Shown here: piece by piece, positions 9,374-43,419 of the stretch | How positions within the stretch are numbered: position 1 is the first letter of the stretch | How the letters are laid out: each line of letters begins with the position of its first letter | From: a virus | Reading direction: 5' to 3' (one strand) | DNA: 45,850 bases | IMG/VR virus record: IMGVR_UViG_3300037070_001164 | Location: 1 to 45,850 of that record | Notes under the pieces: model-generated | The model's input: only the letters and a program-made list of their open reading frames with translations | The model's database searches: none | What the model was told of the DNA's origin: nothing | Translations under genes and position numbers: made by a program

Positions 9374-10363
9374 TCAGGCTGTTCGAGGAAGTCGATCGAG
9401 CGGACTTGTTTCGCTCGTGACGCCAGCGGCCTCGACGTGTGTATAGATCATCGTTTGCCGAAGATCGCCGTGACCCAGCAGCGTCTGCAGGCTGCGAATG
9501 TCCATCCCCGCGTTGAGGCAGTGAGTCGCGAAACTATGCCTGAGGCAATGCGGATGCACGTGCTTCAGAATCCCGGCTTTCCTTGCTGCAATGCCGAGCG
9601 ACCGTCCGAAATTGCTACTATCAATTCTCCAGCGGCCCCACCATTTTTCTTCTGGGTGTTGACTCCTGGCCTGACTACAGAACACCCAATACCACGCCAG
9701 GCTTCCAGCATGACTCGGTGCCATCTGCGCGCCTCGATAAGGCAACTCAACTCTGTTACATCCATCGGCCACGTCTTTTTCATGGAGCCGCCGCGTCCGG
9801 TCGATCTGATCTTTCAGCGGCTGCTCAGTCGTCCTTGGCAGTGGAACAACTCGATCCTTGCCGCCCTTCGCACCAAGAATCATGATTTGTCGATTGCCGA
9901 AATCCACGTCTTTCACTCGCAGACTGACAGCCTCGCCGATTCGCATTCCGCAGCCGTACAAGAGTTGAGCGATCAGTTTCGACTGCCCGTATAGGGAATC
10001 GAGAAGCAGTGAGACTTCCGGAACCGAAAGAAACACTGGCAGTTTCTTCGCCCGCTTGGCTCGCAAGGCATCGATGTCAACGAGGTCGATTTTGAGTACT
10101 TCGCGATACAGGAAGAGGATTGCCTGCAGTGCGTTGTTTTGGGTGCTTGGCGAGACGTTTCGTTTGACAGCAAGGTACTCCAGATAGGCTGTCAACGCTG
10201 GCTCACGAACGTCTCGCGGATCGACCCATTTTCCAGCCCGATTCTTGAGCCAAACGATGTACTTTTCACATTGGTCACGATAGGTGAGGCCGGTGTTTCG
10301 CGCCATGCCCTTACGACGGACTACTGCCTGAAGCTGGTCAAGCGTTTCTGATTTCAGTGCCAC
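9374..10363 (-). CDS. intI: Integron integrase IntI
   Basis: This is a tyrosine recombinase of 329 aa. The start is a GTG at 10363 preceded by GGAG at 6 nt. A longer open frame to 10594 would overlap cassette 1 and attI. Catalytic residues are Arg141 (GCGMRIGE), Lys169 (GGKD), His272 and Arg275 (HCLRHSF), His298 (LGHGD) and Tyr307 (MIYTH). Between Lys169 and the HxxR box, residues about 200-235 (VELPYRGAQMAPSHAG then WYWVF) match the extra domain that distinguishes integron integrases and contacts folded attC bottom strands. The C terminus ends SPLDRLP, as in IntI. Its transcription diverges from the attC array direction, which is the classical layout. Confidence 0.93.
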   Translation of the reverse strand: MALKSETLDQLQAVVRRKGMARNTGLTYRDQCEKYIVWLKNRAGKWVDPRDVREPALTAYLEYLAVKRNVSPSTQNNALQAILFLYREVLKIDLVDIDALRAKRAKKLPVFLSVPEVSLLLDSLYGQSKLIAQLLYGCGMRIGEAVSLRVKDVDFGNRQIMILGAKGGKDRVVPLPRTTEQPLKDQIDRTRRLHEKDVADGCNRVELPYRGAQMAPSHAGSLAWYWVFCSQARSQHPEEKWWGRWRIDSSNFGRSLGIAARKAGILKHVHPHCLRHSFATHCLNAGMDIRSLQTLLGHGDLRQTMIYTHVEAAGVTSETSPLDRLPRTA

Positions 10364-10458
10364 TGTAATCTCCAATCTGAGTGATTGAAGACTCCGTCCC
10401 GGAATTATCCTGCGCAGAAGATGCACGTGCGGTCGACCTGAAGCAAAGGTTAAAACTG

Positions 10459-10479
10459 CCGCGCAGGTTTTTTGCGCGG
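10459..10479. other. Hairpin in intI leader/attI region
   Basis: CCGCGCA and TGCGCGG form a perfect 7-bp stem around a GGTTTTT loop, about 100 nt upstream of the intI start. It may affect intI expression or be part of attI. No LexA-type box of the Escherichia coli kind is evident nearby. Confidence 0.4.
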
Positions 10480-10499
10480 GGATGGCGGATTTGCTGTCC

Positions 10500-10557
10500 G
10501 GTTCAGAACTCTGGGCTGTCTTTAACTGCGCTGGCGCAGAGTAAAAAGGCGTTATGC
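10500..10557 (+). other. Candidate attI site
   Basis: The candidate insertion core GTTATGC lies at 10551-10557, directly after AAAAAGGC, between the intI start (10363) and the first cassette gene. A CTGCGC/GCGCAG hairpin (10526-10539) lies just upstream. The position is exactly where attI must be, because cassette 1 begins here. attI sites share little sequence, so the call rests on position and on the GTT core rather than on homology. Confidence 0.5.
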
Positions 10558-10560
10558 GGA

Positions 10561-10887
10561 CTACTCCGCGATTCCCCGATGATGCCGCTTCCATTTTTCG
10601 CTTTGATGTTCCGCGAAGCTGCCGCCATCTTTCATCAATTGAAATTCCCTGAACGTCACGTCGATCTCATAACAGAATGGACTCCCCTTTACAGAGACAC
10701 ACCATTGGTACGCGACCGCTGATGGTCTTGCTGCGTTTCCCCATGTCCTTGTAGTCATCGTGAGTTCGCCGAATCCCAGGGCTTCACGAAGCCTTCCAAA
10801 CAGTTCGCCCGCAAGTCGATAAGCCGCATAACAATCGCCTCTGTTGACGGCTTGATTCTCGATGGTTGATGCTTCTTGATTTTCCAT
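10561..10887 (-). CDS. Cassette 1 gene, unknown function
   Basis: This 108-aa protein starts MENQEASTIENQ at 10887, where AAGGA precedes by 7 nt. The upstream in-frame ATG at 10902 lies inside attC1 and is less likely. The first about 20 residues and their leader closely resemble those of the cassette 7 gene (shared AVNRGDCY), while the rest differs. The C-terminal part is polar and beta-rich with no known domain. The gene is reversed relative to attC, and its TAG stop lies 4 nt from the attI core. Confidence 0.65.
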   Translation of the reverse strand: MENQEASTIENQAVNRGDCYAAYRLAGELFGRLREALGFGELTMTTRTWGNAARPSAVAYQWCVSVKGSPFCYEIDVTFREFQLMKDGGSFAEHQSEKWKRHHRGIAE

Positions 10888-10901
10888 GTGGTTTTCCTTC
10901 A

Positions 10902-10950
10902 TTGAAACTGGATTCGTTTTCGCCGCCGCAACAGACGCAAAGCGTTCCTG
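10902..10950 (+). repeat. attC1 (short variant)
   Basis: The site has left R box TTGAAAC, right core GTTCCTG and a conserved AAAGC before GTT. The inner arms (GTTTTCGCC and GACGCAAAGC) pair imperfectly. It is shorter (about 41 nt AAC-to-GTT) than the others and lacks the CATCC apical motif. It is nearly identical to attC7. It is supported mainly by its position at a cassette boundary. Confidence 0.65.
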
Positions 10951-10956
10951 GGACAG

Positions 10957-11394
10957 TTACCTTATTGATTCTTCAACGCTGTTTTCCGGATTTTCCGCCA
11001 GCCATGCGAGCAGGCTTCCAGTGAGCGACAGTATGGACTCGTGGAGTTTGTCATGATCGCTGTCTTTCCATCGATCAATGTCCGCTTGAATGCAGTTCCT
11101 GTCGCAATATGGATGCTCTGCGATGATGATCGGATTCTCATTTGCCCAGAGTTGTTTCACATGGCATCCGGCGCAGTAATACCACCAGCCATGATCCAGA
11201 TATTGCTGAACCGTGATTGGTCCCGGTGCGAACTGGTCAAACTCTGGAGATCGTTTGACTCTCAGGTCAACGAATTCACAACCGCAGAAATCGTGCGGGC
11301 GACGGCCACGAAGGTCTTTCCCTTTCGCAGCAAACAGGACTCTCATGAATCCTTCGTCGCATTCGCAAGATAGTTTGTATGCCTTCAGTGCCAT
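10957..11394 (-). CDS. Cassette 2 gene, Cys/His-rich unknown protein
   Basis: This 145-aa protein begins MALKAYKLSCECDEGFMRV, with GGAG 6 nt before the ATG at 11394. Several Cys and His residues (CECDEG, DFCGCEF, YYCAGCHVKQ, HPYCDRNC) suggest one or two zinc sites. There is no signal peptide. attC2 lies immediately upstream in the leader and attC1 follows the stop. No family is recognised. Small zinc-binding proteins are common among phage accessory genes and can bind nucleic acids, but that is only inference here. Confidence 0.7.
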   Translation of the reverse strand: MALKAYKLSCECDEGFMRVLFAAKGKDLRGRRPHDFCGCEFVDLRVKRSPEFDQFAPGPITVQQYLDHGWWYYCAGCHVKQLWANENPIIIAEHPYCDRNCIQADIDRWKDSDHDKLHESILSLTGSLLAWLAENPENSVEESIR

Positions 11395-11411
11395 GCGTTT
11401 CTCCTAAAGCC

Positions 11412-11474
11412 CAGGAACAAGTCAAACAAATGATAATCGCATCCTACGCTTACATTCGTTTTCCAGCGTTCATT
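11412..11474 (+). repeat. attC2
   Basis: The left part is GAAC-AAGTC and the right part is TCCAGC-GTT, giving the 5-nt and 6-nt unpaired spacers of attC sites. The inner arms AAACAAATG and CATTCGTTT pair and extend past one extra base on the left arm. The loop contains CATCC. AAC-to-GTT spans 55 nt. This stretch is identical to that of attC6. Confidence 0.9.
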
Positions 11475-11481
11475 TCAACAG

Positions 11482-11550
11482 CGGTGCCGGATGGATTCGA
11501 ACCACCAATAGGGGACGTCTCCCCCGTCTTGCCAATTAGACTACAGCACC
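11482..11550 (-). tRNA. tRNA-like gene with a 4-nt anticodon loop (cassette 3)
   Basis: It folds as acceptor GGTGCTG/CGGCACC (7 bp, one G-T), TA, D-arm GTCT-AATTGGCA-AGAC with canonical GG, one G, anticodon-position stem GGGGA/TCCCC with only GACG in the loop, TATT variable region, and T-arm GGTGG-TTCGAAT-CCATC with a perfect T-loop. The discriminator is G and no CCA is encoded. Total length is 69 nt, about 3 short of normal, with all the deficit in the anticodon loop. The alternative 4-bp stem with loop GAGACGT lacks U33. It therefore should not decode normally. It sits 8 nt from the attC2 core, inside an integron cassette. Confidence 0.75.
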
Positions 11551-11847
11551 GATTGACCGGCCCTTGTGGATCGCTGTGATCAATGCTGCAGTTCTCCTTT
11601 CGGTTTCCCTGCAACTCCCACTCCCCACTCAGGTTACTCCGCCCGGTCTCCGGAGGCTCTTTAAATGCTCGGTCTCTCCCGGCTGTCACCCCATAACGAA
11701 CAGGCCAGTTTGCACCACCCTGTCGTCTCGTTGCGTGCTCGGGTATTCCTCTGAGGTTGAGCGTTCCCAAGTCCGGCGCAACTCCGGTTCTGCAGTTCAT
11801 GGCCATTTATTGCAGACGTCCCTACTGAGCGACTTTTGCGAGTCGGT
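11551..11847. other. 297-nt gap in cassette 3, no gene assigned
   Basis: No convincing ORF starts here, and no second tRNA or attC was found. The minus strand has pairing potential, for example TTGCAG with CTGCAG around 11586-11612 enclosing a CCGAAAGG tetraloop-like hairpin, and CTCCG/CGGAG near 11637-11655. It may be a leader or a non-coding RNA linked to the tRNA-like gene. I see nothing else. Confidence 0.3.
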
Positions 11848-12069
11848 CTAGGCCAGGGAAGCTTCCGTTGATTTCACAGTCGCTGCTTTTCCATCGCAGC
11901 ATATTTCCACAATTCCGTCCCGCTCAAGTTCTTTCGCCCATTCAACCTCAAGGCCTCTGAGCCATCTGCCTTGCTGTCCAGCGTGCCGTATCACTCTCAG
12001 CAGTGCGTCTTTGTTTTTCTGTGGAGCCGGAGACGAGTCCGATCTCCAAACATGATTGTGCTCGCCCAT
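11848..12069 (-). CDS. Cassette 3 gene, small unknown protein
   Basis: This 73-aa protein begins MGEHNHVWRSDSSPAPQKNKD, with GGAG 5 nt before the ATG. The middle (ALLRVIRHAGQQGRWLRGLEVEWAKELERDG) could form a small helical winged-helix-like fold, and the end is beta (GIVEICCDGKAATVKSTEA). It shares the cassette with the tRNA-like gene downstream. attC3 lies directly upstream. A DNA- or RNA-binding function is possible but unproven. Confidence 0.6.
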   Translation of the reverse strand: MGEHNHVWRSDSSPAPQKNKDALLRVIRHAGQQGRWLRGLEVEWAKELERDGIVEICCDGKAATVKSTEASLA

Positions 12070-12083
12070 ATAAACTCCAAGGA

Positions 12084-12148
12084 AATGAACAAGTCACCCA
12101 AATGATAATCGCATCCATGGCGCTTACATTTGTCTTCCAGCGTTCAAC
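12084..12148 (+). repeat. attC3
   Basis: The site is GAAC-AAGTC on the left and TTCCAGC-GTTCAAC on the right. The inner arms CAAATGATAATCG and CGCTTACATTTG pair with one extra left-arm base. The terminal loop holds GCATCCATGG. Compared with attC2 the arms carry a compensatory change that keeps the stem intact. Confidence 0.9.
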
Positions 12149-12563
12149 TCCAACTCCGATGAACCTCTTCGATTGACTCAAACCCATCGTACTCGCTGAC
12201 TTCCCACTGCACGTCGTCTGGAATTTCCACGACATGAAGTTTTGCGAATTGGCCACTCGCTTTTTGTCCAAGTTCCTCAACGACAGCCACAAGATCCGGA
12301 TCATTCCGCCCGATGTTTCTGTCATAGAGTATTTGCTTTCCTTGCGCCTCGTTGTATGCGCGTCTCTCTTCCAGCGTCATCTCGTGCCAGTTCTCACATT
12401 CTTTGACACGCTCATCCGGGGGCACAGTCCAATACGTCGTGATCCCCAGAGGCCCATCGTCTCTGGCTGGATATAGCGTAATGCCCTTCCGCTTCGCGTA
12501 GGCCATATAGGCTTCCTCAGATAATCCAAATCCACCGTAGCACTTACTGATTACGATCTTCAT
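12144..12563 (-). CDS. Cassette 4 gene, conserved phage-type hypothetical
   Basis: This 139-aa protein starts MKIVISKCYGGFGLSEEAYMAYAKRKG at 12563. AGGA lies 6 nt upstream, and the in-frame extension runs through attC4. The N-terminal KxxxxKCYGGFGLSxxA pattern is one I know from hypothetical proteins of many phages and bacteria, with no assigned function. Its TGA stop uses bases of the attC3 core, so the ORF ends exactly at the cassette boundary. Confidence 0.75.
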   Translation of the reverse strand: MKIVISKCYGGFGLSEEAYMAYAKRKGITLYPARDDGPLGITTYWTVPPDERVKECENWHEMTLEERRAYNEAQGKQILYDRNIGRNDPDLVAVVEELGQKASGQFAKLHVVEIPDDVQWEVSEYDGFESIEEVHRSWS

Positions 12564-12583
12564 TGCACGTCCTAGAAAATTGA

Positions 12584-12640
12584 GTTGAACAAGTCGCACA
12601 CCCGAAAACATCCTGTTTCAGGTGTCCTCCAGCGTTGTGA
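12584..12640 (+). repeat. attC4
   Basis: The site is GTTGAAC-AAGTC on the left and TCCAGC-GTT on the right. The inner arms ACACCCGAAAAC and GTTTCAGGTGT form an almost perfect stem of about 11 bp, with ATCCT in the loop. Its 49-nt AAC-to-GTT body is identical to that of attC11, although the neighbouring genes differ. Confidence 0.9.
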
Positions 12641-12925
12641 CTACTTAGATTCCTGCCCTTCGCCGCTGAGAGTTGAGGCAATTTTTTCAACAGCACCCCA
12701 GTCACGATTGGTCCGCTCTATTGCCAGGCGATGTCGTTCAATGGACATCTCATGATCAACCTGCACGGTCTTTGAAGTTGCGAGTTGTTGCTCAGCGGTT
12801 TCGGTGGCTTTTCGCCAGCCCTCTGATGCCACTTCCAGAAACTTTGCATGGGCTTCCGTTTGCTTCCGAACATTTTCAGCAATGCTTTCTGCCGCCGTCA
12901 CGATTCTCTGCATCATTTCTTCCAT
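12641..12925 (-). CDS. Cassette 5 gene, coiled-coil protein
   Basis: This 94-aa protein is almost entirely helical with heptad-like spacing (RIVTAAESIAENVRKQTEAHAKFLEVASEGW), so it probably forms a coiled coil. AGGAG lies 7 nt before the ATG at 12925. There is no Cys and no membrane segment. The function is unknown, and an assembly or antitoxin-like role cannot be distinguished. The ORF is read toward intI with attC5 in its leader. Confidence 0.65.
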   Translation of the reverse strand: MEEMMQRIVTAAESIAENVRKQTEAHAKFLEVASEGWRKATETAEQQLATSKTVQVDHEMSIERHRLAIERTNRDWGAVEKIASTLSGEGQESK

Positions 12926-12943
12926 TCCACTTCTCCTAAAAAG

Positions 12944-13005
12944 TCACAACAAGTCACACAGACGACAAACGTCCATGTATTGCATCTGCTGTTCCAGCGT
13001 TCTGT
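12944..13005 (+). repeat. attC5
   Basis: The site is TCACAAC-AAGTC on the left and TTCCAGC-GTTCTGT on the right. The arms CAGACG and CATCTG pair, then CAA/TTG follows beyond a one-base bulge on the left arm. The loop contains GTCCATG, so the minus strand shows ATGGA. The outer spacers match the other sites. Confidence 0.85.
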
Positions 13006-13016
13006 GCGTCGACGTC

Positions 13017-13640
13017 CTAGAATAAAACACCCTGCCTGAGCCGTTCCGCTGCAAGCTCGCAATATTGTTCGTTTACTTCGATCCCTACAGCAGTTCGGCC
13101 TTCCAGTTTTGCTGCCACCAGCGTCGTTCCAGATCCCATGAATGGGTCGAGAATCGTCGCCGCGTCCTTTGCCCATCCCAAGCACCACTGCATCAAGCCC
13201 AGCGGCTTCTCTGTCGGGTGTCCGCAATTGTGCTTCCCGACAGGCAGGTCAATTGCCTTGCATGGAATGTCAATGTTTGTCCAGGCGAGTTCCGCGCCCG
13301 CCATCGTTGGCACAGCGTTGATTTTTCTCCAGACAAGCCAGCCTCGCGCTGGTGGCAGTTGAAAATAGTTGCCGCCCCAAACAATTGCAGTGTCAGCACA
13401 ATCAACCATCTGCCCCATCACATATTCTTTCGGGGCTGAATCCCACGCTCGAAAATCCGCGTACTTGTCTGCTGCGCCCCACGTTCCGCCCTGCATCCTG
13501 TCCCCGATCCCATAGGGCGGATCAGTCAGCAGCAAGCCGAACCGCTCCAGGAACGGAAGCACCTTGCGGCAATCCGCGTTGTAAATCGTGCAGTGCGCGT
13601 CCTGATAGAACGGGGCAATAGTTGTCAAAGTCGCTTCCAT
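13017..13640 (-). CDS. Cassette 6 gene, N4/N6 DNA methyltransferase
   Basis: This 207-aa beta-class amino-methyltransferase transfers methyl from SAM to adenine N6 or cytosine N4. The catalytic DPPY is at 40-43, a HPTEKP element at 141-146, and the SAM-binding DPFMGSGTT at 165-173 near the C terminus, which is the order of the beta class. The ATG at 13640 follows a GAGG at 12 nt, and a TTG at 13658 is an alternative. No restriction endonuclease is adjacent, so it is an orphan enzyme and likely protects phage DNA from restriction or alters regulation. It is a full-length single-gene cassette. Confidence 0.88.
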   Translation of the reverse strand: MEATLTTIAPFYQDAHCTIYNADCRKVLPFLERFGLLLTDPPYGIGDRMQGGTWGAADKYADFRAWDSAPKEYVMGQMVDCADTAIVWGGNYFQLPPARGWLVWRKINAVPTMAGAELAWTNIDIPCKAIDLPVGKHNCGHPTEKPLGLMQWCLGWAKDAATILDPFMGSGTTLVAAKLEGRTAVGIEVNEQYCELAAERLRQGVLF

Positions 13641-13675
13641 CAGTTCAGAATTCCTCAATCACAAAATCGCAGGGC

Positions 13676-13738
13676 ACAGAACAAGTCAAACAAATGATAA
13701 TCGCATCCTACGCTTACATTCGTTTTCCAGCGTTATGA
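13676..13738 (+). repeat. attC6
   Basis: From AACAAGTC to CCAGCGTT it is identical to attC2, including both stem arms and the CATCC loop. Only the outer flanks differ (ACAGAAC on the left, GTTATGA on the right). The TAA stop of the cassette 7 gene lies within the right core. Confidence 0.9.
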
Positions 13739-14059
13739 CGACTTCCTGTGACGATCAAAACATCGCTGCACTTCTTGCACAGCCTCTGGCCAATTACTAA
13801 GTTCCTGAAGCACTTGCTGCGGAGTGATTTCTTCCACCTGACAAAGCATCGAGCCGTTTTCGAGATCAAAGACAGTCCACTTGGGTGCATCAAATGTGTT
13901 GTGATCTCCATGAACAAAAAGCCCTCTGGCTTCTTTCGTCATGACCCAGATGCCATGCCGCAATTCGCCCTTGTCGCGTCGTCGAAAGCAGCGCACGTCA
14001 TAACAATCGCCTCTGTTGACGGCTGGCTTTTCGGTGGTTGATGATTCGTGATTGTCCAT
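13733..14059 (-). CDS. Cassette 7 gene, unknown function
   Basis: This 108-aa protein starts MDNHESSTTEKPAVNRGDCYDV, with AAGGA 7 nt before the ATG. Residues 1 to about 20 and their leader, including the attC, match the cassette 1 gene, and the remainder is unrelated. The body (WVMTKEARGLFVHGDHNTFDAPKW) looks like a small beta barrel. The TAA stop is formed by the attC6 core bases GTTA, a typical tight cassette boundary. Confidence 0.65.
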   Translation of the reverse strand: MDNHESSTTEKPAVNRGDCYDVRCFRRRDKGELRHGIWVMTKEARGLFVHGDHNTFDAPKWTVFDLENGSMLCQVEEITPQQVLQELSNWPEAVQEVQRCFDRHRKSS

Positions 14060-14073
14060 GTGTTTTTCCTTCG

Positions 14074-14121
14074 TTGAAACTGATTGGTTTTCGTCGCCGC
14101 AACAGACGCAAAGCGTTCTGA
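14074..14121 (+). repeat. attC7 (short variant)
   Basis: The left box is TTGAAAC and the right core is GTTCTGA. The inner arms TTTTCGTC and GACGCAAA form an 8-nt stem with one mismatch, with loop GCCGCAACA. AAC-to-GTT is 40 nt. It is nearly identical to attC1 and clearly a different subclass from the other 14 sites. Confidence 0.65.
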
Positions 14122-14122
14122 C

Positions 14123-14320
14123 TCACTCACCTGCACTCTTTGGCCTGCCTCTTTGCGGCACATCCACGTCGATGCTGTAGTGCTCAGCCAGGATCGACAG
14201 GATCACCGCTTGCACAGTCTGTTTTTGCTTCTTCGCGTCCTTGAGCAGCTTCAGCCCGAGTTGCTCAGGCAGCCGTAAGTTGACCTGCGGGTTGCCTGCT
14301 TTTTTTTCGTCGTCAGTCAT
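14123..14320 (-). CDS. Cassette 8 gene C, small ribbon-helix-helix-like protein
   Basis: This 65-aa protein starts at 14320 (MTDDEKKAGNPQ), with GGAG 7 nt upstream. The core QVNLRLPEQLGLKLLKDAKKQKQTVQAVILSILAEHY fits an Arc/CopG-type strand-helix-helix. Such proteins are DNA-binding repressors and are often antitoxins. Its start overlaps the stop of the middle gene by 8 nt. A 10-bp inverted repeat upstream of the operon (14927-14972) is a candidate operator. The antitoxin role is inferred from operon layout. Confidence 0.6.
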   Translation of the reverse strand: MTDDEKKAGNPQVNLRLPEQLGLKLLKDAKKQKQTVQAVILSILAEHYSIDVDVPQRGRPKSAGE

Positions 14321-14498
14321 TGTCAGGCTCCTTGAGCTCGACGACCACAATTAGACTGGCGTCCTCACTCTGTATTCTCGCCGCCTCGGACGCATCATAG
14401 ATCCACCGCGCGTCCTCAATTGGGTCGGCGTATTTGTACGCCACCGCTCCGATCGGGACCGCCACTGCAACGCCGTTGATAACAATCGATTGGCTCAT
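14313..14498 (-). CDS. Cassette 8 gene B, small unknown protein
   Basis: This 61-aa protein starts MSQSIVINGVAVAVPIGAV at 14498, with GGGA 7 nt upstream. The N-terminal half is beta-rich and the C-terminal half acidic and mixed (ARIQSEDASLIVVVELKEP). It lies 23 nt after the first gene of the cassette and overlaps the third. No family is recognised. Confidence 0.5.
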   Translation of the reverse strand: MSQSIVINGVAVAVPIGAVAYKYADPIEDARWIYDASEAARIQSEDASLIVVVELKEPDND

Positions 14499-14521
14499 TC
14501 TGATTTCCCAAATTTGGCATA

Positions 14522-14866
14522 TCAATTAACACTTACCGCGGCGGCGAATGCCTCTGCGGTCAACACTCGGATGCAATCGTGTGACTGACCCCGCTCGTCG
14601 CAGTCAACGTACCGGACTGCCGTGTATCCTTCAGCAATCCTTGCAGCGATGTCGCTATTGCGATCACATGGCCACTCCTGATTGTCGATTGCCGATCGCA
14701 GCTCGTCGGCCGCCATCTCGACCACAAGTACAGTCAGCTTGCTGCTGTCGATCGTGACTGCAGTCACATGACTACCGTATGCACTAGCGACGGATTCCGA
14801 CGACGTGAAGCAAATGGCTGGGAAAAATCCAAACTCAGCATTTCGCGATCCGTGGTACATGTTCAT
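14522..14866 (-). CDS. Cassette 8 gene A, ADP-ribosyltransferase-like protein, possible toxin
   Basis: This 114-aa protein opens MNMYHGSRNAEFGFFPAICFTSSESVASAYG. A Y-H-G-S start followed by a hydrophobic FTSS and then an Ala-x-x-x-AYG helix is the arrangement at the NAD-binding end of small ART-fold proteins. No clear catalytic Glu can be assigned, so the call is tentative. AAGGGG lies 7 nt before the ATG at 14866. As the first gene of a three-gene cassette ending in a ribbon-helix-helix protein, a toxin role is plausible. Confidence 0.45.
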   Translation of the reverse strand: MNMYHGSRNAEFGFFPAICFTSSESVASAYGSHVTAVTIDSSKLTVLVVEMAADELRSAIDNQEWPCDRNSDIAARIAEGYTAVRYVDCDERGQSHDCIRVLTAEAFAAAVSVN

Positions 14867-14926
14867 TTTCCGTCCCCTTCATCCACCCGAGCCACCCGAG
14901 CCACACCTTGTTGCTCGCGATGTTGT

Positions 14927-14972
14927 AATGGTATCATTATCGACTCACTCTGCAATCCTAATTGATACCATT
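14927..14972. promoter_or_regulatory. Candidate operator of the cassette 8 operon
   Basis: AATGGTATCA (14927-14936) is repeated exactly in inverted orientation at 14963-14972, with half-sites 36 bp apart start to start. It lies 60-105 nt upstream of the first ORF in the only sizeable untranslated leader of the array. On the minus strand a GATAAT-like -10 sits between the arms. The symmetry and location suggest binding of the ribbon-helix-helix protein encoded in the same cassette. Confidence 0.45.
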
Positions 14973-15016
14973 TTGTTTGAATTGTCGAAACTGCCCGAAA
15001 ACTCAGGGAAAATGAG

Positions 15017-15076
15017 TCAGAACAAGTCACACAAGATGACAGACATCCTGTCAGCATTTGTGTTCCAGCGTTCATC
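15017..15076 (+). repeat. attC8
   Basis: The site is GAAC-AAGTC on the left and TTCCAGC-GTTCATC on the right. The upper stem GAC/GTC closes an ATCCT loop, and lower pairs ACAA/TTGT lie next to the spacers. It marks the distal end of the three-gene cassette 8. Confidence 0.88.
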
Positions 15077-15082
15077 GCTCAC

Positions 15083-15340
15083 CTAGCAGCGGATCAGAAT
15101 ATCACCACCCGGCCACGGTCCCGCTGGTGATTCATCATCTTCATCGTGAATCTTTTGTAGTTCTGCCTGGTGTTTCGGCGTGCCCTGCTTGGGGTCCAGG
15201 TCATGCTTAAACACCAATGCGAGATGCCGCTCAATCATGGCTGTCTGTTGATACGTGAGCGCCAGATTCGCTGGGCCGCCAGATTGATGAGTGATCTCAA
15301 AGTAGCCTTGTAGCCAATAACAGAATTCTGATGCTTTCAT
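15083..15340 (-). CDS. Cassette 9 gene, conserved phage hypothetical
   Basis: This 85-aa protein begins MKASEFCYWLQGYFEITHQSG, with GGAG 7 nt upstream of the ATG. The EFCYWLQGYFE opening and the later MIERHLALVFKHDLDP segment follow a pattern I know from a widespread small phage protein of unknown function. Its presence in a cassette suggests the array draws on phage genes. Confidence 0.75.
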   Translation of the reverse strand: MKASEFCYWLQGYFEITHQSGGPANLALTYQQTAMIERHLALVFKHDLDPKQGTPKHQAELQKIHDEDDESPAGPWPGGDILIRC

Positions 15341-15360
15341 GTCTCACTCCAAATTGTTGC

Positions 15361-15416
15361 GATGAACAAGTCAAACATCGGAGGCATCCGTCCCCCGACG
15401 TTTTCCAGCGTTCAAA
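15361..15416 (+). repeat. attC9
   Basis: The site is GATGAAC-AAGTC on the left and TTCCAGC-GTTCAAA on the right. The arms AACATCGGAGG and CCCCCGACGTT pair over 11 bp with two wobbles, closing a loop with GCATCCGT. It is a compact 48-nt site from AAC to GTT. Confidence 0.9.
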
Positions 15417-15417
15417 C

Positions 15418-15648
15418 TTACTCACCAGCAACCGAAGTCGGTACAAAAAACTCAGGGGCCACCTTCCATGCGTCCCTGTCGTATCCGGCAGCCACGGCCC
15501 GACGAATAAAGCATGTTGGGCATAACATCGGATCAGTTGCATTCTCGTTTCTCACTATCGCGTTCCAAAGTTCGTTCGGAGTGAACCAACACACATTCTT
15601 CGCTCCACACTCCGAACAGAACTCTTCTGGATGTCCAGATTCTGTCAC
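15418..15648 (-). CDS. Cassette 10 gene, small zinc-ribbon protein
   Basis: This 76-aa protein starts with GTG at 15648 (AAGGGG at 6 nt upstream). Two CxxC pairs, CSECGAKN and LCPTCF, frame a segment FTPNELWNAI, which gives a zinc-ribbon-like layout. Similar small proteins with a NELWN element occur in phages without known function. The TAA stop lies 6 nt from the attC9 core. Confidence 0.7.
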   Translation of the reverse strand: MTESGHPEEFCSECGAKNVCWFTPNELWNAIVRNENATDPMLCPTCFIRRAVAAGYDRDAWKVAPEFFVPTSVAGE

Positions 15649-15664
15649 GATGCACCCCTTTCAG

Positions 15665-15723
15665 TTTGAACAAGTCAAACAACCGACAGCATCCTTGCAT
15701 GCAGTCGTTTTCCAGCGTTCAAA
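15665..15723 (+). repeat. attC10
   Basis: The site is TTTGAAC-AAGTC on the left and TTCCAGC-GTTCAAA on the right. The arms AACCGAC and GTCGTT pair with one extra base on the left, then GCA/TGC closes a loop containing GCATCCTT. Confidence 0.88.
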
Positions 15724-15732
15724 CTACAGATA

Positions 15733-15915
15733 CTAAACCGCTGCGTCGGACGCTTCCGAACCGACTAACGCTAATGCCAACGATCCAACCGGGTGGCCAG
15801 CCACGCCGACAACGTGCCTGATGTGTGTCGCCAGTTCTTCGCATTGCTCGCGAGCATCGGGCGGCAGTTCTTCGATGATCTTCTTGATTTCAATCGTGAC
15901 CTGTGACTCTCTCAT
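15733..15915 (-). CDS. Cassette 11 gene B, small helical protein
   Basis: This 60-aa protein starts MRESQVTIEIKKIIEELPPDAREQ at 15915, with AGGAG 5 nt upstream. The ATG overlaps the stop of the partner gene (ATGA), which indicates coupled translation. It is helical with a Gly/Ala-rich end (GSLALALVGSEAS). No domain is recognised. Confidence 0.55.
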   Translation of the reverse strand: MRESQVTIEIKKIIEELPPDAREQCEELATHIRHVVGVAGHPVGSLALALVGSEASDAAV

Positions 15916-16166
15916 GGTTTCTCCTTTGTCCATTCGAACGAATCGCACCCAGGAAGATGCCGGATGAGGTCCATATCGGACTCATCGTCTTCTTCGATCT
16001 CATACATTCCTTCCGCCGTGGCCGTATGGGAGATTCCGCAGCTTTCGACGAACACAAGTGGAAATCCATTTGGGTCGTGAGGATTCAGGCCAACGACATA
16101 CATGCGGTCTCCGCAACTGGTTTCCCAGAATTCACCGGGCTGCGGTTTCTTTGATTCTTCAACCAC
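15912..16166 (-). CDS. Cassette 11 gene A, small unknown protein
   Basis: This 84-aa protein starts with GTG at 16166, with AGGAG 6 nt upstream. It reads as a small beta-rich domain (GEFWETSCGDRMYVVGLNPHDPNGFPLVFVESCG) with an acidic C terminus. It resembles short phage proteins whose beta barrel begins GDVWE/GEFWE, with unknown function. It forms a two-gene cassette with the overlapping 60-aa gene. Confidence 0.6.
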   Translation of the reverse strand: MVEESKKPQPGEFWETSCGDRMYVVGLNPHDPNGFPLVFVESCGISHTATAEGMYEIEEDDESDMDLIRHLPGCDSFEWTKEKP

Positions 16167-16183
16167 GCTTATCTCCTAAAGAG

Positions 16184-16240
16184 TTTGAACAAGTCGCACA
16201 CCCGAAAACATCCTGTTTCAGGTGTCCTCCAGCGTTCTCA
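16184..16240 (+). repeat. attC11
   Basis: It is identical to attC4 from AACAAGTC through CCAGCGTT, including the arms and ATCCT loop. The flanks are TTTGAAC on the left and GTTCTCA on the right. The cassette content on either side differs from that at attC4. Confidence 0.9.
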
Positions 16241-16250
16241 GGACAGATGC

Positions 16251-16475
16251 CTATTTCTTCTCGGTCGCGGTTTCTCGTTTGTCCGCCGCTGCGGGAAACG
16301 CCGCATACAGTCCGTCAGCAGCGAACTCAATCATGATCTCTCCGTCTCGCAGTCCTTTCTTCACGACTGCCTTTGACGTTGACCACTCCAGCAGATCCTT
16401 TTCGCGCAGCTTTCGATTGCACAGCAGAAGCCGTGCGGCATTCAGAATTTGACGCTCAATTGGTAACAGTGCCAC
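16251..16475 (-). CDS. Cassette 12 gene B, small unknown protein
   Basis: This 74-aa protein starts with GTG at 16475 (VALLPIERQILNAARLLL), chosen because GGAGG lies 6 nt upstream. It is basic and helical at the N terminus, with a winged-helix-like organisation (REKDLLEWSTSKAVVKKGLRDGEIMIEF). Its 5' end overlaps the zinc-ribbon gene by 20 nt. DNA binding is possible but unproven. Confidence 0.55.
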   Translation of the reverse strand: MALLPIERQILNAARLLLCNRKLREKDLLEWSTSKAVVKKGLRDGEIMIEFAADGLYAAFPAAADKRETATEKK

Positions 16476-16683
16476 TCTTCGCCTCCTCATCAAGTTTTCT
16501 CATATTCGCCATCAACTCGCTCGTGTACTTCGAGTTATGCTCGCAGTTCGTTGACCCGCACTCGGGGCAGCAGATGTCGTGATACACCGACATGGCAGCA
16601 CGCCAGTTGTCGATCGTTCCTCGATATCCGCACGATCTGCATTCCTCAACGTGTTCCGGTTTTTCAGTCGACTCTTCGCTCAT
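16456..16683 (-). CDS. Cassette 12 gene A, zinc-ribbon protein
   Basis: This 75-aa protein has CRSCGYRG and CCPECGST pairs with spacing typical of a zinc ribbon, then NCEH and a helical tail. GGAGG lies 4 nt before the ATG at 16683. Together with the overlapping 74-aa gene it makes a two-gene cassette. Nucleic-acid binding is the usual role of such ribbons, and the target is unknown. Confidence 0.65.
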   Translation of the reverse strand: MSEESTEKPEHVEECRSCGYRGTIDNWRAAMSVYHDICCPECGSTNCEHNSKYTSELMANMRKLDEEAKSGTVTN

Positions 16684-16699
16684 GATTCCTCCAAAGTCC

Positions 16700-16764
16700 T
16701 GAGAACAATTGCATCATCCGATAATCGCATCCATCCGATTACAGATGGATGCAAGGCGTTGCTG
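16700..16764 (+). repeat. attC12 (divergent)
   Basis: The site is GAGAAC-AA on the left and GGC-GTTGCTG on the right. The arms TTGCATC and GATGCAA pair perfectly next to the short spacers, and the upper arms CGATAATCG and CGATTACAG also pair. The loop contains GCATCCATCC. The spacer sequences differ from the AAGTC/TCCAGC type. Confidence 0.8.
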
Positions 16765-16807
16765 CGGACGTCGGCCCCTTCTGTTCCTACAGAAGTGGCA
16801 CGGACAC

Positions 16808-17047
16808 TCAACCTGTACGCAATGCTGCTTCCAGGAATTCCGCCGCCTTACTCCAGTTGTGAGCCCTCGCCCATTCTATGGTTGCCCCAGAGTTGGGCGA
16901 TCTGTTCCATGCGATGACGGCGTCTGCCGTTCGTTTCTTGATGAGATCAAGTGCGGAACGAAGCGCCGTGTCCTCTCCGTCCGCAGCAACGCCTCGGTCA
17001 AGTTCGAGCGATTGTTTTTTAGCCTGCCCTGATTCAACTTCGCTCAT
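16808..17047 (-). CDS. Cassette 13 gene, small unknown protein
   Basis: This 79-aa protein starts MSEVESGQAKKQSLELDRG at 17047, with GGAG 6 nt upstream. The C-terminal half, ADAVIAWNRSPNSGATIEWARAHNWSKAAEFLEAAL, resembles the Lar-type fragment of phage proteins in which an AWN motif is followed by a short helix. That similarity is weak. It is followed by about 45 nt of untranslated sequence before attC12. Confidence 0.55.
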   Translation of the reverse strand: MSEVESGQAKKQSLELDRGVAADGEDTALRSALDLIKKRTADAVIAWNRSPNSGATIEWARAHNWSKAAEFLEAALRTG

Positions 17048-17083
17048 GATCTTCTCCGCTTCCACAAGTTACTCTTCGACGCC

Positions 17084-17155
17084 GCTCAACAATTCGCTCG
17101 ACTGAAAGCCATTGGCATCCGTGCCAATCGCCTTCAGTTGACCGAGGCGTTCACA
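17084..17155 (+). repeat. attC13
   Basis: The left box GCTCAAC fits the RYYYAAC consensus exactly and is followed by AATTCGC. The right part is CGAGGC-GTTCACA. The arms TCGACTGAAAGCC-ATTGGC and GCCAAT-CGCCTTCAGTTGA pair over about 18 bp, closing an ATCCGT loop. This is one of the clearest attC folds in the array. Confidence 0.88.
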
Positions 17156-17297
17156 GGACAACGATTCCCTCATCCGTTCCTCGCATCATCACGAGTTCAT
17201 CATAGGCGTCGATTTTTTCGTGATCGTCCGCTGGTATCTTTCCGACATCGCGAGTTTTCCCAAACCGGGCTTCGATGCTGTCGCACAATTTATGCAC
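17151..17297 (-). CDS. Cassette 14 gene B, 48-aa protein
   Basis: This short frame runs from a GTG at 17297, with GAGG about 8 nt upstream, to a TGA that uses bases of the attC13 core. The product begins MHKLCDSIEARFGKTRDVGK and is charged and probably helical. Being bounded exactly by the cassette edge, as other cassette ORFs are, supports it despite its size. Its function is unknown. Confidence 0.5.
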   Translation of the reverse strand: MHKLCDSIEARFGKTRDVGKIPADDHEKIDAYDELVMMRGTDEGIVVL

Positions 17298-17315
17298 TCG
17301 CCCAGCCTCGCACTC

Positions 17316-17546
17316 CTATTTGATTTCATCGTTGAGGTTCGCCAGTTCGGGGAACCATCGCCTCAGCCAAGGTTCGCACTCTTTTTGGACTCGCGTAAGC
17401 TGATGTGTCATCAGGTTGCCGCTCACCAGCCAGTTCTGCAGTTCATAGACCTGCCCGATTCCGTTGTCTCCTTGTTTCTTTGGGCGAACCAGCATCCATC
17501 CCGTCATCACTGTCAGGACTGCAAGAGTCGAAAAAGTCTTCTTCAC
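17316..17546 (-). CDS. Cassette 14 gene A, small membrane-anchored or secreted protein
   Basis: The GTG at 17546 follows GGAG at 6 nt and gives a 76-aa product beginning VKKTFSTLAVLTVMTGWMLV. This is a short signal-anchor with two Lys then a hydrophobic stretch. The remainder is a polar, Trp-containing helix-rich domain (YELQNWLVSGNLMTHQLTRVQKE). It is probably periplasmic with one membrane anchor. It sits 18 nt upstream of the 48-aa gene in the same cassette. Confidence 0.55.
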   Translation of the reverse strand: MKKTFSTLAVLTVMTGWMLVRPKKQGDNGIGQVYELQNWLVSGNLMTHQLTRVQKECEPWLRRWFPELANLNDEIK

Positions 17547-17567
17547 TACACTCTCCAAATAAGGCCA

Positions 17568-17626
17568 TGTGAACAAGCAGATGCACTGACAGCATCCGTG
17601 GCTGCAGAACATCTGCAGCGTTACAC
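17568..17626 (+). repeat. attC14
   Basis: The site is TGTGAAC on the left and GTTACAC on the right. The outer arms GCAGATG and CATCTGC pair perfectly, and the upper arms CTGACAGC and GCTGCAG pair with a one-base bulge. The loop is ATCCGTG. The TAA stop of the cassette 15 gene lies inside the right core GTTA. Confidence 0.85.
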
Positions 17627-17905
17627 AGACTCAGGTGTGTATCCCTGAGCCTCACGAATCAGTTTCGGGTTAGGTTGTCGCAGCACGCGGCATTTGATTT
17701 CGTCGGACTTCGCGAATCCAAAGTGGTTCAGCATGACTTCGTCCATTCGATCGCCGCTGAGATCCAATCCATCCATGACCCAGAATTCGTCGACTTCGAT
17801 TTCCACGACCCATCGAAATTTCCGGCAGGGTTTTCCTTCGTCCGTGAAATTTGTCGCATTCTCTTTTCGCGGAGTTGTTGTGCGAGTGTATGTCTGGCTG
17901 GTCAT
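17621..17905 (-). CDS. Cassette 15 gene, small unknown protein
   Basis: This 94-aa protein starts MTSQTYTRTTTPRKENATNF at 17905, with GAGGG 5 nt upstream. The N terminus is Thr-rich and polar. A beta-rich middle follows (KFRWVVEIEVDEFWVMDGLDLSGDRMDEVML), then a short C-terminal tail. It may be a small single-domain binding protein, but no family is recognised. The stop overlaps the attC14 core. Confidence 0.6.
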   Translation of the reverse strand: MTSQTYTRTTTPRKENATNFTDEGKPCRKFRWVVEIEVDEFWVMDGLDLSGDRMDEVMLNHFGFAKSDEIKCRVLRQPNPKLIREAQGYTPESV

Positions 17906-17920
17906 GGTTGCCCTCTTGCT

Positions 17921-17987
17921 GTGTAACAATAACTTCATCCGATGAATGGCATCCGTGACCATCACGGACGCAAGTTAAGCGTTCGTC
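17921..17987 (+). repeat. attC15
   Basis: The site is GTGTAAC-AAT on the left and AAGC-GTTCGTC on the right. The arms AACTT and AAGTT pair, then CATCCG with CGGACG (wobble) and ATGGC with GACCAT and a bulge. The loop is ATCCGTGA. It is longer than the AAGTC-type sites. Confidence 0.8.
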
Positions 17988-17991
17988 GTAT

Positions 17992-18990
17992 TCAGATAGC
18001 CACGACTTGTGGCAACCCATCGTGCGTTCTTCCGTCCAGAAGTCGCCCTGCGTTTTTCTTTCCCACGCGTGTTTCGGTTTCGTCGAATTCGCCCCACTGT
18101 TTGAAGTGGAATGCGATTCCCGCCATCAGGCATTGATCCCGAAGTGAACGGAACCACTCTGGCTTGCATGGTCTCGCGTTCGGCCCACTTTCACCGCCCG
18201 TGATGACCCAATCAATTCCACCTTCCCCGAGATGGTTGTAAACCAACCCGCCGTGGTGTCCCTGCAGCTTCACAGGACCGACAAGCGGTTCCGCTGAGAC
18301 GAACGTCGTTCCGACAATCCCGTTCCGCTTCGCGGCGTGCAAATGCGGGAGCCGCTTATCAGTCCACTCCTGATTCTCGATCGACGTTCCCAGCCATACG
18401 TTGTCGCGCCTCCGAATTAGTCGCCCAGGCTTCCCGAATATCGCCGCAGCCAGTTTTCCATTATGGCCGTCGTCCTCCGTTGGCCACATCTTCTCGACAT
18501 TCTCTGGCCGCTTCGTCAGCAGCAGCCAGTCCAGTTGTGGTGTTGCGTCGATCAGTTTGAATAATTCGTGCCGCAAGTCATGCAGCGTGATCGGACTCCA
18601 CCCTTGCGGATCTCGCTGAAGCGAGTCAGCGTCCGTCGAAACCCAGAACTCAGGAGTGTTTTCGCTGTCAAGGTACGGGCGACAAATAACATCGCCACTC
18701 GCATCGAGTATATGACCTGCCCACGCCTCAAACACATCTGCCAACGACGCGCAGAAGACGCGAGGGCGCGTTCCGTTTTTGATCGCGTCCCTGTTCCACC
18801 GGATCGGCTTATTCCAGTTTTCCACTGAGGTCTTGACCCGTGTCCCACTCGCGCCCCAGGCCACCTTGCCGTACCGATGATCCATGTCCCGCTCTGCATA
18901 GCAGTTGGCGCATGCAGGACTCACTTTCACGCAACCCATCCAAGGATTGAACGTGTGATCGGTCCACTCAATTTTGCTGTTCTCTGCCAT
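17992..18990 (-). CDS. Cassette 16 gene, phage Gp37/Gp68-family (DUF5131) protein
   Basis: This 332-aa protein starts MAENSKIEWTDHTFNPWMGC at 18990, with GAGGGG 6 nt upstream. The opening IEWTDxTFNPWxGCxKVSxxCxNCYAE is the hallmark of the Gp37/Gp68 family found in many phages and mobile elements, and its three Cys could hold a cofactor in a radical-SAM-like way. Later landmarks are DWLLLTKRPENV, WLGTSIENQEW and a GGESGPNARP element. The biochemical role is not established. It is by far the largest cassette gene and appears complete. Confidence 0.85.
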   Translation of the reverse strand: MAENSKIEWTDHTFNPWMGCVKVSPACANCYAERDMDHRYGKVAWGASGTRVKTSVENWNKPIRWNRDAIKNGTRPRVFCASLADVFEAWAGHILDASGDVICRPYLDSENTPEFWVSTDADSLQRDPQGWSPITLHDLRHELFKLIDATPQLDWLLLTKRPENVEKMWPTEDDGHNGKLAAAIFGKPGRLIRRRDNVWLGTSIENQEWTDKRLPHLHAAKRNGIVGTTFVSAEPLVGPVKLQGHHGGLVYNHLGEGGIDWVITGGESGPNARPCKPEWFRSLRDQCLMAGIAFHFKQWGEFDETETRVGKKNAGRLLDGRTHDGLPQVVAI

Positions 18991-19013
18991 AGACATCCCC
19001 TCAATCGCAAAAC

Positions 19014-19068
19014 GACGAACAAGTCACCCAGCCGAGACATCCTGTCCGGCAGTCTTCCAGCGTTCAAA
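19014..19068 (+). repeat. attC16 (distal end of array)
   Basis: The site is GACGAAC-AAGTC on the left and TTCCAGC-GTTCAAA on the right. The arms GCCGAGAC and GTCCGGC pair with one extra left-arm base, closing an ATCCT loop. Its right core overlaps the TGA stop of the next gene (19064), so the array ends exactly at a phage gene. Confidence 0.88.
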
Positions 19069-38566: not shown

Positions 38567-40783
38567 CTAAGCCCCAGCGTGCTTGTAAAGTCCGCGATAA
38601 TCGATTGCCGCAACGCCAAACGTCTGCCGAACCTTGTACTTGTAAAGATCCTTGTCAAAGTCCCATTCGTTCTCAAGAACTGGCGATTGCTCGCCTTCGA
38701 GGAACGTGATTTCGACCGTATCGACCTGGCTGTGATTGGCGGCAAAGTAAAACGCTGTCGAGCTATTTGCGTCGAGCAATGGCTCGACCACAACTCTCAA
38801 TGGTCGCTCTCCGTTCGGGCCGTAGATGTTTTTGATGTTACTGTTACCGACAGCACTTCCACCCGCTGCTGGATCCGACATCGACGCAACGAGAACCATT
38901 GCCGTTGCTGACAACACAGCAGGGACGATCAAGAACGCTGGTTGAATATTGAGAGTCACGTCTGATGTGATCCCCAGCCCCTTCTTGGTCATCATCGACA
39001 GAAACGCCGCATTGAGCGTCACAACGGTTGGAGCTGCCGAGCCTGTTGCGAGGTTCGCGTGACCACCAGCTGTTGTCTGTGCTGTCGCGTTGAACAGGGC
39101 TCCCGTGTCGGCCATTGCGGCATTTGCAGTCAGCACGCCGTAGACGGCCTGATTTTGCAAGCGGCGACACGCCGCCCCTTGCATTGCAGGGATGCGACTG
39201 ATGGCATCGAGGTCATCGTTGACAATGGTTTCCCATGTGATGGTAAACATATTGCCGTATTTGTTGATCTTGTAAGTTTCCCTCGCGTCACTCATCGGAG
39301 ATTCGGGATAATCTGTTCCCTCTGGAACCATTTGCGGAACGCCCATTTCGCTGAATCGAATACGATTCAGCGCCTTAAAGTCAGCAGTAGTTCCGGCATT
39401 TCGTGCCCACAGTTCCCAGGTGTATGGTGCCTCTTCATACCCTGCCAGCAGCGTTTTGTTGGCGGCGTCCAGAAGCAACTCAGGAAATGATCCGGTCGAG
39501 TGATAGGCATCGCGCTGGACACGGAAACGATTCATTGTTCCAGGGTGGCCCATCGCTACAAGCGCAACGTCTTTGGAAGCCATGCGGCGAACATCGCAAC
39601 CCATCTTCTCCGCGTACAACTCAGCCATGCGGCTCAGTTTCATGTTGAGAAAATCTTCGTGCCCTGGGGCTGGATTCGGAACAGCAACACCACGAAGGCT
39701 TGCCGTTCTGAATGATCGCATGATCAACCCATCGCGTGCGGCAGCGAATGTCTTATCATCTGCTGATGCGGTCATTGTGACACGATCGGTCGTCTGCCCG
39801 ACTGGCTTTGTGGCCATGCGAGCCAAAACCTTTTCACGCGCTGAGTTCAGGTCTGTGCCGGCGTCACACAGTTCATCAGCGTACGATCGCTCGATCTTGT
39901 GTGCCGTGCAAAGTGACTGGATTTCCTTGCGTCGTTTGGCGTCCGCCTGCAGAGCTCGGCTGATAGCCGCCTCAACGTCTTTTTCTTCAACTGGGTTCGC
40001 GTCAGTGGCCATTTGCTCAACTTTCTTTTCTTCTTCAGGAGGTGTGACTTCATCCATTTTTTCAACCGGCTTTTCAGTCGGCTTATCCGGTTTTGGAGGT
40101 TCGGCCGCAGGAGCCCCACCAATCTTTCCGACGACCCACGCCAGAATCTGATTTGGGTCGGTCATGCCTTCGGGGAGTCCCATTTCTGTGAGAGATCCCA
40201 GTAGAGCCTCATCCATTCGTGTCACCTTTCGATTGAGGTCTGTATAGGACCTGCGGACAGTAGAGAGCTCGTCCGCGCCAGTGGCACAGATCGATGCGTT
40301 ATGCGGCTGCCATCGCGTGTGAATAATGGCCGGGCCGTCTATGGTTGCGCCTCTGGATGTCGTGAACGTCTTCCCGTGCGGAATGAACAGAGACTCCAGT
40401 GGTACAGCTGTGATTGAAAAATCTGTTATGTGCCCATCGTTCATCCGCTGGCAAACCAGTTGTGCTTCAGGGTCGCTCGCAAAGACTGGCTGGCCGTGGA
40501 GCTCACCATTCACGACCTGCAGCCCGCGAATACTTCCGAGGATGTTTCGCACCGTGGAATCGTCGTGCGAATCCACGATTGGCATCTGCTGCTGATTCGT
40601 GCGAAGAACCACGCCTTCCATCAGCAGCACTTCATTGATCACATATCCCCGGTCTTCGTCATATCGCCGAACTGGTGACTCGGTCGCCACAACAACGTCC
40701 GTAACACCGTTCGTGAGTCCAACTGACCGAAGAATCAGCGGTTTGTTTTTCAGTGGAGGCAGTTTGCCTTTCTTACGCGGCAT
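38567..40783 (-). CDS. Prohead protease-scaffold-major capsid fusion
   Basis: The start at 40783 (MPRKKGKLPPLKNKPLILRSVG) has GGAGG 9 nt upstream. Residues about 15-170 form an HK97-type prohead protease: His73 in DSHDDSTVRNILGSI and Ser123 in ITDFSITAVP are the expected catalytic pair. An acidic Pro/Glu/Lys linker (about 225-290) is scaffold-like. Residues from about 370 to 738 form a major capsid domain (ETYKINKYGNMFTITWETIVNDD, RLQNQAVYGVLTAN, WDFDKDLYKYKVRQTFG). Encoding protease, scaffold and capsid as one 738-aa chain requires self-cleavage for assembly. The stop precedes a GC-rich hairpin. Confidence 0.82.
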   Translation of the reverse strand: MPRKKGKLPPLKNKPLILRSVGLTNGVTDVVVATESPVRRYDEDRGYVINEVLLMEGVVLRTNQQQMPIVDSHDDSTVRNILGSIRGLQVVNGELHGQPVFASDPEAQLVCQRMNDGHITDFSITAVPLESLFIPHGKTFTTSRGATIDGPAIIHTRWQPHNASICATGADELSTVRRSYTDLNRKVTRMDEALLGSLTEMGLPEGMTDPNQILAWVVGKIGGAPAAEPPKPDKPTEKPVEKMDEVTPPEEEKKVEQMATDANPVEEKDVEAAISRALQADAKRRKEIQSLCTAHKIERSYADELCDAGTDLNSAREKVLARMATKPVGQTTDRVTMTASADDKTFAAARDGLIMRSFRTASLRGVAVPNPAPGHEDFLNMKLSRMAELYAEKMGCDVRRMASKDVALVAMGHPGTMNRFRVQRDAYHSTGSFPELLLDAANKTLLAGYEEAPYTWELWARNAGTTADFKALNRIRFSEMGVPQMVPEGTDYPESPMSDARETYKINKYGNMFTITWETIVNDDLDAISRIPAMQGAACRRLQNQAVYGVLTANAAMADTGALFNATAQTTAGGHANLATGSAAPTVVTLNAAFLSMMTKKGLGITSDVTLNIQPAFLIVPAVLSATAMVLVASMSDPAAGGSAVGNSNIKNIYGPNGERPLRVVVEPLLDANSSTAFYFAANHSQVDTVEITFLEGEQSPVLENEWDFDKDLYKYKVRQTFGVAAIDYRGLYKHAGA

Positions 40784-43138: not shown

Positions 43139-43419
43139 CACTCGATTTCCTTCCACGTCCCACCACAAAAACCGCACTTGCAGTATCGCGTCCTGCCTTG
43201 TGTACTATACACGCGAGAACACGACCTACCATTGATTTTCTCGTCCAAGTCGCGCAACCGCTGACACGCGCTGCACGCTCGCGGGACAAAGGACGTAACT
43301 CGCGGCTTCGGCTCATCGTTTGCGGAGACTAGCAACCCATCCGCCTGGTCGTTTCTTTGGCACTCCGTGGCGCTGACCTGCTGGTTTTCCTGCCGGTGGT
43401 TTCTGTGCGGCTTGTTCAT
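43138..43419 (-). CDS. Small zinc-binding protein in packaging module
   Basis: The start at 43419 (MNKPHRNHRQENQQVSATECQ) lies within the 3' end of the terminase gene. The C-terminal half has CSACQRL, then SCSRVYSTQGRTRYCKCGFCGGTWKE, a two-site zinc finger with basic loops. This pattern appears in small phage proteins beside terminases. It may bind DNA or the terminase. The stop overlaps the next ATG (TGATG). Confidence 0.6.
   Translation of the reverse strand: MNKPHRNHRQENQQVSATECQRNDQADGLLVSANDEPKPRVTSFVPRACSACQRLRDLDEKINGRSCSRVYSTQGRTRYCKCGFCGGTWKEIE

Follow-up and report, generated by a model that had tools for sequence, protein, structure and literature searches.

A tRNA-like element with a four-nucleotide anticodon loop carried by a cassette of a phage integron

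The viral record IMGVR_UViG_3300037070_001164 (45,850 nt, analyzed over its whole length and called the window below) carries, between two attC sites of a phage-borne integron, a tRNA-like element that folds into a cloverleaf but has a 4-nt loop at the end of its anticodon arm. We favor, at roughly an even chance, the interpretation that this element is a tRNA-Gln that lost its decoding capacity recently and travels as cargo of an integron cassette.

ARAGORN called one tRNA in the whole window, labeled 'tRNA-???', at 11481-11550 on the minus strand. The Rfam tRNA model (RF00005) spans 11482-11550 on the same strand end to end, with a score of 49.1 bits (E = 8.9e-10) against a gathering cut-off of 29 bits. 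This match requires sensitive filters; a whole-window scan with default filters misses the element, and since the sensitive match covers its full length, we attribute the empty result to filter loss. Over 18.3 Mb of sequence obtained by dinucleotide shuffling of the window, ARAGORN made three tRNA calls, or ~0.0075 per window. Upon RNA folding, the MFE and the centroid structure were both the cloverleaf (60% of the ensemble; -29.5 kcal/mol, z = -3.0). The near-perfect acceptor, D and T arms, the GG of the D loop and the TTCGAAT T loop described in the initial annotation are therefore confirmed by the Rfam score and the MFE structure. The acceptor stem (GGTGCTG/CGGCACC, with one T-G pair) is followed by T8 and A9; the D stem (GTCT/AGAC) encloses a GG-containing D loop, AATTGGCA, with G26 next; the variable loop is TATT or ATT; the T stem (GGTGG/CCATC, with one G-T pair) carries a T loop with TTC; and the discriminator is G73. 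CCA is not encoded at the 3' end, where CTG comes next.

ARAGORN, Rfam and folding also agree with the earlier description of the anticodon arm: a GC-rich, 5-bp stem (GGGGA/TCCCC) is closed by the 4-nt loop GACG, and U33, a 7-nt loop and an anticodon are all absent. Relative to a normal 5-7-5 arm, 3 nt are missing; an optional G26-T44 pairing (G-U) gives a stem of 6 bp. A tmRNA was considered and rejected, given the contiguous acceptor halves, the presence of a D stem and no tmRNA call by ARAGORN. The coordinates of the element and of the surrounding features are collected in Table 1.

Table 1. Positions of the tRNA-like element, its cassette, the integron and the phage marker genes in the window
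Feature	Position	Strand	Remarks
tRNA-like element	11482..11550	minus	4-nt anticodon loop GACG, tRNA-Gln-like D arm; ARAGORN, Rfam, folding, BLAST
Short anticodon arm GGGGGA(GACG)TCCCC	11511..11525	minus	contains the palindrome GACGTC; sixth pair uses T44
Content between attC1 and attC2	11474..12085	minus	73-aa ORF, ~300 nt non-coding, tRNA-like element
Non-coding stretch between 73-aa ORF and tRNA-like element	11551..11848	minus	
73-aa cassette ORF	11849..12069	minus	start 17 nt from attC2
attC1	11414..11473	minus (= attC bottom strand)	fold, covariance model
attC2	12086..12147	minus	fold, covariance model
Strong attC	12586-12639	minus	covariance model
Strong attC	12946-13004	minus	covariance model
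Strong attC	13678-13737	minus	covariance model
Strong attC	15019-15075	minus	covariance model
Strong attC	15363-15415	minus	covariance model
Strong attC	15667-15722	minus	covariance model
Strong attC	16186-16239	minus	covariance model
Strong attC	17570-17625	minus	covariance model
Strong attC	19016-19067	minus	covariance model
Weaker attC	16702-16763	minus	covariance model
Weaker attC	17086-17154	minus	covariance model
Weaker attC	17923-17986	minus	covariance model
Integron integrase IntI (tyrosine recombinase)	9374..10594	minus	TIGR02249, 320 bits
N6_N4 DNA methylase cassette gene	13017..13658	minus	
DUF5131 / phrog_2045 gene	17992-18996		far array end, between attC 17923-17986 and 19016-19067
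ClpP-capsid fusion	38567-40813	minus	phage marker gene
Portal	40773-42605	minus	phage marker gene
Terminase	43313-45547	minus	phage marker gene

A terminase, a portal and a ClpP-capsid fusion identify the window as a phage. Its region 9374-19067 is a phage-borne integron, composed of an integron integrase, about 14 attC sites of the same type, and phage accessory genes as cassettes. The score of the integrase exceeds the cut-off (265 bits) of TIGR02249, a curated integron-integrase model, and the protein is 40% identical to IntI1. The attC-like repeats extend from 11414 to 19067 at intervals of 250-1300 bp; in their fold, the outer boxes are AAC/GTT, the spacer is unpaired and the inner stem varies. 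In their consensus, nine of 15 pairs covary with both sides changed; the R' box in most copies is GTTC, not the strict GTTRRRY. A covariance model returned 11 strong and three weaker sites, all in a single orientation; the 11 strong sites were used to build the model and match it by construction, and the three weaker sites are new. On the minus strand the bulges are in the 3' arm, and we judged the orientation of the sites from these bulges and from their likeness to known attC sequences. The cassette in which the initial annotation had placed the element is, with IntI nearby and attC1 and attC2 on its flanks, a phage integron gene cassette.

Two further features of the array were noted. The cassette ORFs with a coding signal (10957-18996) are on the minus strand, start ~20 nt from an attC and are oriented like intI, and the positions of the bulges suggest that the attC top strand is the plus strand; relative to attC, the ORFs may thus run opposite to those of classical cassettes. 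In addition, 10827-10947, near intI, and 13999-14118 are duplicates, 89-95% identical and both ending in GCGTTC; the duplicated stretch is a possible candidate for attI or for a duplicated recombination site.

Within its cassette, the tRNA-like element lies behind the 73-aa ORF, for which no family match was found, and the non-coding stretch. Several other cassettes stop within ~15 nt past their own ORF, hence the segment that includes the element is an unusual extra. A 118-aa ORF that crosses the element (11450-11806) is probably spurious, with a G+C content of 0.56 at all three codon positions and no homologue. We also noted that an upstream sequence, TAGGGACGTCT (11814-11824), is the complement of the anticodon arm AGACGTCCCCTA (11511-11525) except for one bulge; this complementarity is marginal, being found in 44 of 2000 shuffles and in six of 602 real windows.

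Sequence comparisons indicate that the element probably derives from tRNA-Gln. When viral contigs were scanned for its D arm and T arm with any length between them, all five normal-loop tRNAs with the same D arm that ARAGORN could name were tRNA-Gln (L192, L195, L197, L199 and L200). The top BLAST matches against all fetched loci were likewise tRNA-Gln, at 75-77% identity, and G73 is compatible with Gln. The element and tRNA-Gln (RF00005) have in common the cloverleaf, the D and T arms, G73 and the D-arm sequence; by contrast, the element has a 4-nt anticodon loop and neither U33 nor an anticodon. No direct parent gene was found among the loci compared, hence the Gln origin is probable rather than proven. 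The same scan retrieved Gln-like copies with a different short arm, CCAGC(gttta)GCTGG (L193, L194, L196 and L198), and L325 is another Gln-type short-arm copy.

The element occurs once in its own genome and is unique so far across phage and plasmid records and the best 80 of 384 viral integron-integrase loci. The initial annotation had proposed a search for homologues in phages; neither the element nor the whole cassette content matched any phage or plasmid record, so no homologue with a 4-nt or a 7-nt loop was found. The 384 viral contigs encoding integron-integrase relatives came from a profile search based on an alignment, whereas a single-protein search of viral contigs returned nothing; in the best 80 of these 384 loci, ARAGORN called four ordinary tRNAs and no short-loop tRNA-like element. 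The attC model of the window had no match in 48 other integron-integrase loci; it is probably overly specific to the window array. An attC pattern gave two matches in bacterial genomes and 65 in viral contigs, every one of them single, which is about the chance expectation by our own estimate of the specificity of the pattern, so these matches point to neither the host nor relatives.

Viral contigs commonly hold tRNA genes with a damaged anticodon arm but intact acceptor and T arms. A pattern scan for a D arm and a T arm with a shortened middle gave at least 120 matches in viral contigs, with good acceptor and T stems in 83 of the 120 among the matches listed. Among these short-middle matches, many sequences unrelated to one another close a perfect 5-bp stem by a loop of 4 nt (for example, L021, L045, L048, L075, L083, L100 and L111). 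A complete listing from a scan with a stricter D arm was mixed, with loops of 4 nt in some copies, irregular arms in many and scarcely any arm in others. As the D and T arms were preset, these scans are uninformative on whether damage falls on the anticodon arm more often than on the other arms; moreover, a short loop alone is no proof of function, since decay of this arm is common in phage tRNA genes. We noted that in L203, L206, L214, L222 and L226 the acceptor, D and T arms are perfect and ~11 nt replace the anticodon arm. ARAGORN labels short-loop tRNA-likes undetermined, or misses them.

One short-loop family, family A (AGTCAGG...TCCT(aaca)AGGA...; L008, L024, L026, L032, L039, L054, L315 and L320 are among its members), was found in 25 viral contigs, mostly of tRNA-bearing phages, as seven variants that are always 68 nt long. 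The scan admitted arms of all lengths between far below and above the normal one, and no version with a normal loop was found. In the alignment of the family, 95.7% of cells are paired, whereas shuffling gives 93.0% (0 of 500) and sliding no more than 59%; three D- and T-stem pairs have changed on both sides, and the short arm TCCT(AACA)AGGA is invariant. The cloverleaf of family A looks to have been preserved by selection, for which an alignment of few and related rows provides moderate evidence. Like the element in the window, family A has intact acceptor, D and T arms and a short anticodon arm with a 4-nt loop. Nevertheless, the two are unrelated in sequence: family A has a 4-bp stem and tRNA-Trp as its nearest annotated relative, and it is found in tRNA-rich phages outside cassettes, whereas the window copy is cassette cargo. 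The suggestion that short-loop tRNA-likes can be retained in phages is strengthened as a general idea, in that family A provides moderate evidence that phages can maintain a cloverleaf that lacks its decoding loop; retention of the window copy, for which no homologue was found, does not follow from that of family A.

The reading as a decoding-dead tRNA-Gln is based on the full-length tRNA score and fold, the Gln D-arm signature and the Gln best matches, and it is in keeping with how common damaged anticodon arms are among tRNA genes of viral contigs. Also in its favor are the single copy of the element, the lack of a homologue in phage or plasmid records, the absence of any tRNA-like from the best 80 other viral integron loci, and a position past the cassette's own gene, at which most other cassettes stop. 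Given that no homologue was found in any collection searched, a recent single inactivation is the simplest reading. A recent loss of three loop bases would have disabled a tRNA-Gln gene; its tRNA function would be gone, and its arms would be intact as the loss is young. The element would be co-transcribed leftward with the 73-aa cassette gene, and because its elbow and acceptor are intact, we infer that RNase P can cut it and that the host can add CCA. The product would be a stable RNA unable to read a codon, and IntI would move the element along with the cassette. Several points count against this reading, however. None of the ~20 base pairs or of the conserved D- and T-loop bases has been lost, the change is concentrated at the decoding site, and few neutral substitutions would spare all pairs. 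Furthermore, the Gln loop CTTTGAC and GACG differ by several bases and not by one simple deletion, and at least one other short-loop family looks to be preserved by selection.

Tentatively, the element might instead be a retained anticodon-less RNA, processed, CCA-tailed and acting via its elbow and acceptor, a possibility to which we give real if lesser weight. Such an RNA might occupy or titrate RNase P, the CCA enzyme, elbow modification enzymes, Gln/Glu charging, GatCAB or acceptor-end toxins, or it might serve the processing or stability of the cassette transcript as a module at its 3' end. The intact elbow, the closed GC-rich arm, the 5-bp-stem/4-nt-loop cloverleaves in many unrelated viral contigs and the other Gln-type short-arm copies are in its favor, as is family A with its covarying stems and no normal loop across all contigs and variants. 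However, family A is unrelated in sequence to the window copy, the latter has no homologue, hence no selection is demonstrable, and no promoter- or terminator-like site was found near the element (the promoter scan covered the sigma-70 consensus only). More doubtful still is the wider proposal that cloverleaf RNAs without an anticodon, their short anticodon arm closed, form a class that phages maintain for work done by the elbow and acceptor end instead of decoding, and that one of them has here been made into a cassette that IntI can exchange between phages and bacteria. We found no evidence for the decoy role put forward in the initial annotation, and its anticodon-nuclease version is the least likely. 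Phage tRNAs with anticodon-loop mutations evade tRNA-cutting defenses (van den Berg et al., 2023; PMC10264068), and functional tRNAs with mutated loops allow phage escape from such nucleases (PMC10264068; PMC11455837). The element is likewise a phage-carried tRNA with an altered anticodon loop, but the published mechanism requires tRNAs that still decode, and the element has neither a 7-nt loop nor an anticodon. Because the loop bound and cut by anticodon nucleases of the PrrC, VapC, colicin E5/D or PARIS AriB type is the very part that is missing, we give a decoy for them hardly any credence.

With a tyrosine integrase gene 0.9 kb away, and with many phages integrating in tRNA genes and carrying the 3' half or the whole tRNA (PMC10865867), the element could also be an attP remnant copied from a host tRNA gene. 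The tRNA gene near a tyrosine integrase does resemble the arrangement in tRNA-dependent lysogeny (PMC10865867), except that a functional tRNA and a phage Int that uses a tRNA attB are found there, and a dead tRNA and IntI in the window. An attP origin is quite improbable: the nearby integrase is IntI, which acts on attI and attC, and the element sits between two attC sites; in addition, the whole tRNA is present, including a 5' half not required in an attP core, and there is no integrase besides IntI among the ORFs scanned. Lastly, the element is known from the assembly of a single metagenomic contig and its arm is GC-rich, as might be expected if the short loop were an error of assembly or sequencing and the gene an ordinary tRNA-Gln. 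We rate such an error as very improbable: errors rarely make a perfect stem of 5-6 bp with a loop that is not the Gln loop minus three bases, and similar short arms are present in independent contigs.

Phage integrons have been described only recently. Qi et al., 2023 (PMC9892861) reported phage-borne integrons and attC clusters, including methylase cassettes, and the window resembles these in its integron integrase, its attC array and its cassettes with a DNA methylase gene. It differs in that one of its cassettes holds a tRNA-like element, the word tRNA being absent from that paper, and in the sequences of its integrase and attC sites, which have no close match among the published examples (33-40% identity for the integrase). 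Our search of the open-access literature found no report of tRNA cassettes or of short-loop phage tRNAs, which is weak evidence. If the tRNA-like cassette works, integrons would spread structured RNAs besides protein genes, and the recurring short-loop tRNA-likes together with the covarying family A make a role for anticodon-less tRNAs in phages directly testable.

Virus Rctr41k (KX853513.1; 4680-10099) encodes an integrase that is 40% identical to the IntI of the window, followed by attC-like repeats (TAACAAAGCGTGCACTGGAC ... TAACGCAAACCGTTRG) every 270-670 bp; annotated merely as integrase-like, this locus is probably another phage integron, judging from the repeats. Seven other integron-integrase contigs (L236, L238, L257, L269, L287, L290 and L299) share the portal or the ClpP-capsid fusion of the window, and this sharing among the contigs L231-L310 suggests a phage group that often carries integrons.
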